Origin: Paenibacillus sp. RC334
GTDB lineage: Bacteria; Bacillota; Bacilli; Paenibacillales; Paenibacillaceae
DNA: 64,000 nt
Assembly (NCBI RefSeq): GCF_030034735.1
Contig: NZ_CP125370.1
Span: forward strand, 124,001-188,000
Direction of reading: 5' to 3'
A program made the position numbers and the translations under genes. The notes below the pieces were generated by a model. It worked only from the letters and a program-made list of their open reading frames with translations. It had not been told where the DNA came from and made no database searches. Every line of letters begins with the position of its first letter. The stretch's first letter is position 1. This document shows positions 55,774-56,767 of the stretch, in pieces.

Positions 55774-56118
55774 GTGTCCATGTTTACACTGCACGGTAAA
55801 GGCTCCAATGAACAAGACATGTACGGAGTTACGCTGGGTAACCAATTGAAGGGAATCGTGGCGTTGAACGGCTATGTGCCTGACTTTGTGAAAACGGAAT
55901 ACGCGCTGCAAAGCACGGAGGACGTATCCGTATTTATTTCCTACGGCGGATACGATTCCGTATTTCCAATGAAGATCGGTCATGAGACCGCAGCGTATTT
56001 CCAGACCCGGACATCTCACTGCACGTTCAAAACGTACCCGACAGACCACGGTGTCTCACCCGACAACCAACGGGACGTGCTCCAGTGGCTGCGTGAGGAT
56101 GCGGGAATCTCGTATTGA
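55774..56118 (+). pseudogene. Internally deleted phospholipase/carboxylesterase-type hydrolase
   Basis: The frame begins with 'FTLHGKGSNEQDMYG', the oxyanion-region start of alpha/beta hydrolases of the phospholipase/carboxylesterase family, and jumps directly to 'LGNQLKGIVALNGYVPDFVKTEYALQ', the segment that normally follows the nucleophile. About 80-100 residues including the Gly-x-Ser-x-Gly nucleophile elbow are missing. Catalytic Asp ('GGYDSVFP') and His ('TDHGVS') remain. Upstream, GGAGGGAG leads to ATG 55767, whose frame soon stops (MESVHVYTAR), so the N-terminus is frameshifted as well. A non-functional remnant. Confidence 0.75.
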
Positions 56119-56140
56119 TGGCAGTACGTATGTATAGTAA

Positions 56141-56146
56141 TATAAT
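56141..56146 (+). promoter_or_regulatory. -10 box upstream of the 33-aa peptide gene
   Basis: Consensus TATAAT, 45 bp before ATG 56191. The best -35 candidate (TTGATG, 56115-56120) is 20 nt away, longer than ideal. Confidence 0.45.
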
Positions 56147-56190
56147 TTCAGAGGGTGTAGTAAGCACTCCGGAAAGGAGAACCTAAGACG

Positions 56191-56292
56191 ATGGGGACCG
56201 CGATTGTACTTCTACTCACGGCACTGGTTAATCTCGCAGCCGCTTGGATGAACTTCCAAACAGCCAAGAAAAATAACCGCCGGGTAAAGTAA
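56191..56292 (+). CDS. 33-aa hydrophobic peptide, possible type I toxin
   Basis: MGTAIVLLLTALVNLAAAWM followed by NFQTAKKNNRRVK: one membrane helix (about 3-20) and a basic tail, the layout of small holin-like/type I toxins of Firmicutes. AAAGGAG lies at 56174-56180, 10 nt before ATG. The 3' region forms two hairpins (56294-56324 and 56334-56362) and is covered on the opposite strand by a likely antisense RNA with its own promoter and terminator. Toxicity is an inference from layout; the peptide could also be a harmless small membrane protein. Confidence 0.6.
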   Translation: MGTAIVLLLTALVNLAAAWMNFQTAKKNNRRVK

Positions 56293-56375
56293 AAAGCCCC
56301 TTACGCTGCAACGTAAGAAGGCTTGAATCATCAGCAAGGTTGGGGAGCAATCCCCTTCCTGCACCCTATCATCTT
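56288..56375 (-). ncRNA. Candidate antisense RNA (antitoxin) to the 33-aa peptide mRNA
   Basis: On the minus strand TTTACA (56410-56405), exactly 17 nt, TAAGAT (56387-56382) would start RNA near 56375. It would fold GCAGG..GGGGA/TCCCC..CCTTGC, then AAGCC..TTACG/CGTAA..GGCTT ending in CTTTTT (56295-56291), a good intrinsic terminator right at the stop codon of the peptide gene. The RNA of about 88 nt would pair with the 3' end of the toxin mRNA, as RatA does with txpA in B. subtilis. Confidence 0.5.
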
Positions 56376-56452
56376 ATGCTTATCTTACCCTCTTCATTCT
56401 CTGTTGTAAATTATATTTTACAAATTCGAGAAACCATAAAGGAGGCATCAGT

Positions 56453-56539
56453 ATGCAAACTGTTACCCTTATCATCGCTTTGGTCGGTCTGGTTATTTCA
56501 CTGGCTGCTTTATCACAAGCTATTAAGAATAGGAGGTAA
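56453..56539 (+). CDS. 28-aa hydrophobic peptide, possible toxin partner
   Basis: MQTVTLIIALVGLVISLAAL then SQAIKNRR: one membrane helix (about 4-20) and a short basic tail. AAAGGAGG (56438-56444) stands 8 nt before ATG, an excellent ribosome site. The last codons (AGG AGG) also form the ribosome site of the next gene, so the two are coupled. Confidence 0.65.
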   Translation: MQTVTLIIALVGLVISLAALSQAIKNRR

Positions 56540-56544
56540 TCGCT

Positions 56545-56724
56545 TTGGCAAGGAATGCGCTATCTTTTAGATTTCCGGAAGAGTTCGCTACAATGCTGCG
56601 TACCTGGTCATTTGTTACCGAAAAGGATCAAAGAACCATTTTGCAAGAAGCCTTCACAGAATATGCGAATAATCACCCAGATACCAAAGAGAAAGTCCTT
56701 CAAGTCATAAACACACTAAAATGA
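56545..56724 (+). CDS. 59-aa small protein, possible ribbon-helix-helix regulator/antitoxin
   Basis: TTG start with AGGAGG at 56531-56536 spaced 8 nt. The sequence begins 'ARNALSFRFPEEFATMLRTW', an alternating strand followed by helix ('PEE' turn) as in ribbon-helix-helix proteins, and continues as a helical, acidic-basic segment to 'VLQVINTLK'. RHH proteins bind DNA as dimers and are common antitoxins. The assignment rests on pattern only. Ends in a terminator; five bases separate it from the 28-aa peptide gene. Confidence 0.55.
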   Translation: MARNALSFRFPEEFATMLRTWSFVTEKDQRTILQEAFTEYANNHPDTKEKVLQVINTLK

Positions 56725-56751
56725 CCTGTCACAGAGACAGGCCATTTTTTT
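56722..56751. terminator. Terminator after the small-peptide genes
   Basis: TGaCCTGTC-acaga-GACAGGcCA (56722-56742) followed by seven T; read from the other strand it can also end pgmB. Confidence 0.82.
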
Positions 56752-56767
56752 ATATTCTTTCCCTTCT

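Follow-up and report, generated by a model that had tools for sequence, protein, structure and literature searches.

In Bacillus subtilis, the type I toxin-antitoxin loci txpA/RatA, bsrG/SR4 and bsrE/SR5 each combine the gene for a small membrane toxin with an antisense RNA that converges on its 3' end, and the ribosome site of the B. subtilis toxin mRNAs lies in a stem of 4-5 base pairs (PMC6562991). In the B. subtilis prophage SPbeta, the yonT/SR6/yoyJ locus produces a polycistronic mRNA encoding two small membrane toxins; SR6, an antisense RNA of about 100 nt, is located between yonT and yoyJ, overlaps the 3' end of yonT and extends to the yoyJ ribosome site (PMC5848175). In hok/Sok of plasmid R1 and AapA1/IsoA1 of Helicobacter pylori, pairing between its two ends silences the full-length toxin mRNA (PMC8167048; passages on toxin mRNA structure are also present in PMC4147584). 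A 2019 review of B. subtilis systems sets the ribosome-site stems found there against Gram-negative bacteria, where long, inactive mRNAs are processed; its passages on B. subtilis name such a stem, not end-pairing, and it mentions pseudoknots proposed for other Gram-positive systems (PMC6562991).

The locus described here is found in Paenibacillus sp. RC334, in a 64,000-nucleotide stretch of contig NZ_CP125370.1 (hereafter the window, whose positions serve as coordinates). It follows the same order as yonT/SR6/yoyJ, with a gene for a presumed toxin, pep1 (33 aa), an antisense RNA, and a gene for a second membrane peptide, pep2 (28 aa), after which comes a gene encoding a 59-aa ribbon-helix-helix-like (RHH-like) protein. 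The unit spans approximately 56111 to 56756, and thus continues beyond 56410, where the preliminary description of this DNA ended. In the reading that we prefer, to which we assign a probability of about three in four, it would be a mobile type I cassette of the prophage type, here in a chromosomal copy, in which a lock in the mRNA and the antisense RNA together silence pep1 and the RHH-like protein acts as a repressor. The design of the locus as a type I toxin-antitoxin system is well supported by sequence comparison, with the role of pep1 as the toxin presumed. The yonT/SR6/yoyJ locus resides in a prophage, and relatives of the present cassette occur in viral contigs; in the window itself, translations read by eye place the cassette among helicase-like, sugar-phosphorylase-like and LacI-like genes, and a prophage context is absent.

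The terminator scan found no intrinsic terminator on the plus strand between pep1 and pep2, and the antisense RNA therefore lies inside a probably polycistronic unit. Like yonT and yoyJ, pep1 and pep2 are probably encoded on one transcript, which here would also include the RHH-like gene. A hairpin at 56718..56756, terminator-like on both strands in the scan, forms the end of the cassette. Immediately 5' of the cassette, a 114-aa open reading frame (55774-56118), whose residues 19-106 align with the C-terminal portion of Abhydrolase_2 (profile positions 124-213 of 217), seems to be the remnant of a hydrolase gene; a sequence resembling it also adjoins the cassette in genome G013. Across the whole window, no Rfam family reaches its gathering score, and the four weak hits, which are to families of snoRNA and microRNA, are taken as chance.

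The pep1 gene (56191..56292, plus strand) has an ATG start and encodes a hydrophobic, one-helix peptide with a basic tail, preceded by the ribosome site GGAAAGGAG at 56171-56179 on the same strand, as the preliminary description had it; a small hydrophobic peptide gene of the kind that type I loci contain is thus present. Its predicted promoter is TTGATG-17-TAATAT (56115..56143, plus strand), for which the scan gives ATGGCA-17-TATAAT (56118-56146, plus strand) as an alternative; in G063 and G019, TTGACA-17-TATTAT occupies this position. Six residues (M1, T10, N14, L15, A18 and N21) are invariant in an alignment of 12 sequences. Toxins of the txpA/bsrG type presumably belong to the Hol_Tox family (PF16935). 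The loci txpA/RatA, bsrG/SR4 and bsrE/SR5 have the convergent antisense RNA and the ribosome-site stem in common with the locus studied here, but pep1 has no Hol_Tox match, and searches of Pfam and NCBIfam gave it no match above cut-off (stray, weak Pfam matches have E values of 0.12 or more, in one member each). Kinship of pep1 with txpA/RatA was given up on this ground. A pep1 profile run against 75 genomes of the genus gave some match at E <= 1 in 46 of them, mostly noise, and all six strong places (E <= 1.4e-11) fall at this cassette. Six of the weaker matches were read; two on contig 11 of G019, L084, L086-L092 and those without a locus were left out.

On the minus strand, an antisense RNA of about 88 nt with two hairpins is predicted at 56288..56375. 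Its promoter, TTTACA-17-TAAGAT (56382..56410), is indicated by both scan and comparison, and its terminator hairpin (56297..56320) has a T-rich tail, CTTTTTACTT, that reaches the pep1 stop codon. Single matches of this kind are weak evidence, since a scan of 1.5 kb yields 8 promoter-like sites against 2.3 expected and 7 terminator-like sites against 1.1 expected. The antisense stretch folded alone has a z of -1.85, with 12/200 shuffles folding equally well. With the signals of the single sequence as weak as this, the case for the antisense unit rests on comparison. All 22 pep1 loci have a minus-strand -35/-10 pair that matches 9-11 of 12 consensus bases with a spacer of 17-18 (9 of 12 is reached by 91/1100 base-shuffled stretches), which bears out the minus-strand promoter proposed in the preliminary description. 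Among three loci without an intact pep1, two retain the promoter (11 and 9 of 12) and G007 scores 8 of 12.

A hairpin with a T-rich tail is present in 22/22 pep1 loci, and in 25/25 when those without an intact pep1 are included, against a control in which hairpins with at least 8 pairs arose in 26/110 shuffles. The earlier claim that this terminator ends at the pep1 stop codon holds for the window and, within 15 nt, for 16 of the 22 loci (G771, a weak case, among them), but not for the other six, where it was judged by eye to be displaced or weak: the pep1 stop is shifted relative to the hairpin in G008, the hairpin falls within the end of a longer open reading frame in G701, G503c and G417b, it is short in G503a, and a different hairpin was scored in G503b. 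Save for G008, these are the distant loci, and the lock is unaffected in them. The 22 loci are mutually non-independent, and most were reached through the antisense region itself, an ascertainment bias that weighs less on the search of 75 genomes with the pep1 profile. In 15 aligned sequences, RNAalifold finds 15 consensus pairs in the antisense RNA, 7 of them with compensatory changes on both sides. The antisense unit also outlives pep1: G013 and G418a retain it with pep1 lost or broken, as does G007, with a damaged -35 box. Loci in which the peptide is kept and the antisense promoter and terminator are gone, which the preliminary description had named as evidence against its proposal, were not encountered among the loci compared, most of which had been reached through that region. 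The comparisons point to an antisense RNA gene complementary to the pep1 mRNA, as in type I systems. The proposal of a type I locus with a convergent antisense RNA is well supported by conservation, with toxicity and antisense control still presumed, but it had overlooked pep2, the RHH-like gene, the palindrome upstream of pep1 and the lock.

This lock was found in the predicted fold of the pep1 mRNA, taken from its predicted start to just beyond the 3' segment. At the predicted mRNA start, AGAGGGTGTAGTAAGCA (56150..56166, plus strand) pairs with TGCTTATCTTACCCTCT (56377..56393, plus strand) in an outer helix; the start-codon region, TAAGACGATGGGG (56184..56196, plus strand), pairs with CCCTATCATCTTA (56364..56376, plus strand); and a hairpin, CTCC-GGAAA-GGAG (56167..56179, plus strand), hides the pep1 ribosome-binding site. 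Equivalent hairpins are formed from other sequences in G418b and G444. A single 3' segment (56364-56393) is thus predicted to pair with both the 5' end and the start-codon region, and its opposite strand contains the antisense -10 box (opposite TGCTTATCTTACCCTCT) and the start of the antisense RNA (opposite CCCTATCATCTTA).

In the first 13 loci folded, the ends are paired in every case (z -4.9 to -10.2; 0/100 shuffles each), and 13 further loci, consisting of seven diverged family members and six of a wider group described below, have z values of -3.7 to -9.8, with 0/60 shuffles each as good. By comparison, z does not fall below -3.31 in 150 stretches of 251 bases drawn at random from the window. 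However, at least 13 pairs between the ends occur in 40 of these 150 stretches; end-pairing alone is not rare, and stability and conservation therefore decide. When the end segments alone were shuffled, 0/100 were as good in eight loci, 1/100 in G304, V35, G444 and G424, and 2/100 in G008, where one lock pair is broken and the pep1 end is shifted. Across 17 columns of the outer helix (register set by eye) in 14 distinct loci, 205 of 238 cells are paired, and 0/20000 permutations that exchange the 3' segments are as good (mean 189.7, maximum 203); 9 of the 17 columns contain a compensatory change, some resting on one locus. When the partner was shifted out of register in an earlier data set (18 columns, 9 segment pairs), the number of paired cells fell from 135 to 49-98 of 162. 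For nine diverged loci, the 5'/3' duplexes have a mean of -38.6 kcal/mol with their own partners, compared with -35.5 kcal/mol when exchanged (permutation 0.0017), although the own duplex is not always the most stable and the 5' end from the window pairs better with several foreign 3' segments. RNAalifold recovers the outer helix unaided. No pair count includes the loci that look decayed or have no recognisable 5' partner (L052 in G388, L060 in G453 and L061 in G543).

The start codon is predicted to be paired with the 3' segment in 19/20 loci, and is partly paired in the exception, G503b. In silico, the probability that the ribosome site is unpaired is 0.00-0.12 in the full form, compared with 0.07-0.62 without the 3' segment; because removal of this segment frees the ribosome site only in part, the prediction that 3' trimming activates the mRNA is an uneven one. 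The models thus have the 5' and 3' ends of the pep1 mRNA pair with each other and hide the translation start, as in hok. Column 8 of the helix, which is G-U in 11/14 loci and A-U in 3/14, bears on whether this complementarity acts in RNA or in DNA; G-U is a pair in RNA but a mismatch in DNA. This argues against the idea that the two segments are oppositely oriented copies of a protein-binding site, one for each promoter, with no RNA pairing involved. Such a repeat would indeed be an inverted repeat in DNA, and its 3' copy overlaps the antisense -10 box. However, this places the 3' copy on a -10 box, whereas the 5' copy lies beyond the predicted start of pep1 transcription, and the start-codon region pairs as well, with changes in step. 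Binding sites of this kind seem to us a highly improbable explanation, and we retain RNA pairing. Both hok and AapA1 are Gram-negative systems, and the pep1 locus is by prediction likewise end-paired; it differs from them in that the other strand of the 3' lock segment carries the antisense promoter, and in the second peptide and RHH-like gene downstream.

The pep2 gene (56453..56539, plus strand), aligned in 14 sequences, has the ribosome site AGGAGG and encodes a one-helix peptide that is a possible second toxin. It scores 13.1 bits against Hol_Tox, below the cut-off of 23.3, with weak matches in 5 of the 14 members; a match to the PepG1 model is also weak and below cut-off. SR6 reaches the yoyJ ribosome site, whereas the antisense RNA of the present locus is predicted to start at 56375, some 78 bases ahead of pep2.

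The RHH-like gene (56545..56724, plus strand) has a TTG start, and its product, aligned in 16 sequences, is a presumed autorepressor. In a monomer model (mean pLDDT 73.5), it has helices at residues 12-25, 29-43 and 45-58 and no strand; the helices sit where ribbon-helix-helix proteins have theirs. No Pfam family matches the protein from the window above cut-off, and its weak matches are to unrelated models; the best Pfam match among its relatives is DUF4404 (E 8e-4), and the UniRef name of one relative begins 'CopG family transcriptional regu'. YonU, the product of the next gene in SPbeta, is by contrast not RHH-like in our comparison, and no sequence relation between the two proteins was detected.

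An imperfect palindrome, CGTATTGATGGCAGTACG, lies over the pep1 -35 box (56111..56128) and is a putative operator for the RHH-like protein. It is exact, GTATTGA(C/T)AGCAATAC, in G063, G019, G304, G232 and Aneurinibacillus. G424 and G458 have another inverted repeat in its place and no RHH gene seen downstream. The link between protein and palindrome is only suggestive, because the G418b and G503 loci have the RHH gene and lack the -35 palindrome. In G771 (L070), a small open reading frame judged by eye to be helix-turn-helix-like replaces the RHH-like gene, and a different inverted repeat is present at the pep1 promoter. A second palindrome, TTGTAAATTATATTTTACAA, over the antisense -35 box (56404-56423), was considered as a general operator and rejected for its patchy presence. 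It occurs complete, or almost complete, only in loci of Paenibacillus, in G304 and in the viral contigs L034/L035; because G063 has a cut version and G232 and Aneurinibacillus lack it, it falls outside the general design. It is partly duplicated in G008.

The proximity of the RHH gene to pep2 admits a type I/II hybrid, in which pep2 is the main toxin, the RHH-like protein its partner, and pep1 a leader peptide. G013 and G418a, which keep the antisense unit and pep2 with pep1 lost or broken, would fit such an arrangement. It accords poorly with the pep2-like peptides of G424, G458, G701 and G771, downstream of which no RHH gene was seen, and with the fact that both the antisense RNA and the lock target pep1, the antisense RNA being predicted to begin about 78 bases short of pep2. 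We regard the hybrid as very unlikely, and continue to treat pep1 as the presumed toxin.

A DNA search of 75 genomes of the genus gave matches in 9, five of which have the whole cassette (the RC334 genome itself, G018, G008 with its shifted pep1 end, G063 and G019). In G013, pep1 is gone but the antisense unit persists together with pep2; G007 lacks the start of pep1 as well as the antisense -35 box, and G046 and G028 contain remnants. The cassette is dispensable, judging by this decay in several relatives and a genome of the same species, G060, in which the DNA search found no cassette match. Named records with the RHH gene are from Paenibacillus maysiensis, P. farraposensis, P. ottowii and Aneurinibacillus aneurinilyticus; P. 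xylanexedens has the RHH gene without the cassette. A first covariance model of the antisense region detected 9/344 genomes of the family and 5/398 of the class, which we take to be Bacilli. A second model, with the new members added, detected 12/398 genomes of the class, G388, G453 and G543 appearing decayed, and 10/344 of the order, one being the G046 remnant; in the orders of two members, 4/14 and 2/39 genomes were detected. A search with the RHH-like protein in 220 genomes of the class returned 11 places in 7 genomes, which by eye are eight complete cassettes and one each that is pep1-less (G418, contig 134), stop-containing (G453) and solitary (G067).

A search with the RHH protein led to five viral contigs. 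The cassette is present in four of them (L033-L036, of which L033 has the Aneurinibacillus sequence and L035 and L036 are near copies of each other); L037 has, like G067, the RHH gene without it. Pattern scans added two viral contigs with sequences as in two G232 loci. Searches of phage and plasmid collections (the RHH-like protein in both, pep2 in phages) gave no match, or one chance match with an E of 2. In G232, two near-identical cassettes (L026 and L027) are located on two contigs, and each is followed by the start of an open reading frame judged by eye to be serine-recombinase-like. A wider pep1-like group found with the profile (L079-L083 and L085) has the same order, with a basic-tailed helix peptide and then a helix peptide of 29-32 aa, and end-paired folds. 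Its antisense promoter matches at most 8 of 12 consensus bases in five of the six loci and 10 in L085, and no terminator was found in two of the six; with antisense promoter and terminator signals this weak, the group was not accepted into the family. The order of the cassette is kept in distant genomes and viral contigs. By sequence, the cassette recurs in other Paenibacillus, in Aneurinibacillus, in other families of the class and in viral contigs.

The presence of the cassette in viral contigs, together with the weak resemblance of pep2 to Hol_Tox and PepG1, could also be explained if the locus were a membrane-peptide operon and not a toxin system. In that case, pep1 and pep2 would be membrane peptides of phage or host with a holin-like or regulatory role, whose dose is tuned by the antisense RNA and the mRNA fold; the toxicity of pep1 is, after all, presumed. 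Double silencing by a lock and an antisense RNA is, however, what a toxin would need. Additionally, pep1 was never found without the antisense promoter (22/22), but the antisense unit has persisted in G013 and G418a beyond the loss or breakage of pep1. A non-toxin operon therefore strikes us as unlikely, and a silenced toxin remains the preferred reading.

If that reading is correct, the locus might work as follows. One promoter would produce an mRNA for pep1, pep2 and the RHH-like protein. Once RNA polymerase had passed 56393, the pep1 part would fold end to end, as predicted by the fold and its compensatory changes; pep1 would then be silent, its ribosome site enclosed in a separate hairpin and both the 5' end and the start codon paired with the 3' segment. 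The antisense RNA, about 88 nt long, would pair with the part of the pep1 mRNA that begins at the stop codon, most likely leading to cleavage by RNase III, by analogy with yonT/SR6 and bsrG/SR4 (PMC5848175, PMC6562991). It could also pair with the segment that covers the start codon. The outer lock helix would be out of its range and would not be opened by it, given that the antisense RNA is predicted to start downstream of its -10 box. The RHH-like protein would probably repress the pep1 promoter via the -35 palindrome. Production of pep1 might then begin once the 3' part of the mRNA was removed and the antisense RNA exhausted, for example after loss of the element, with pep2 as a second membrane peptide, as in yonT/yoyJ.

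It may be that the lock is more widely distributed. In the predicted fold of the yonT mRNA (L072:6466-6760), the region of the GUG start pairs with a segment beyond the SR6 promoter; in this one sequence, z is -6.0 over 275 nt but only -1.65 once that segment is omitted (218 nt). Homology between pep1 and YonT was not accepted (hhalign P-value 0.077 over 5 columns), nor was homology between the antisense RNA and SR6, for which R2 matches in a 12-kb stretch of SPbeta are at chance (best E 0.73; SR6 region 6.1). Even so, yonT of SPbeta may be a remote relative that has the same putative lock.

In the literature searched, with most subscription papers outside our reach, neither this family nor end-pairing in a Gram-positive type I system was found described. 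On balance, we think it probable that the cassette represents a previously undescribed, prophage-borne type I family, present in several families of the class, in which the same 30 bp provide both a hok-like lock and the promoter and 5' end of the antitoxin, with the RHH-like protein as a third layer of control and yonT as a possible remote relative. If so, pep1 would be, within the literature searched, the first Gram-positive example of a type I toxin whose mRNA is end-paired, and end-to-end locking of the hok/AapA1 type would extend to these organisms; the lock could not change without touching the promoter of the antitoxin. The analysis additionally provides covariance models and alignments of 13 to 15 loci, a predicted fold (from one sequence) for the well-studied yonT/SR6 pair, and a likely function for small open reading frames of various genomes and viral contigs.
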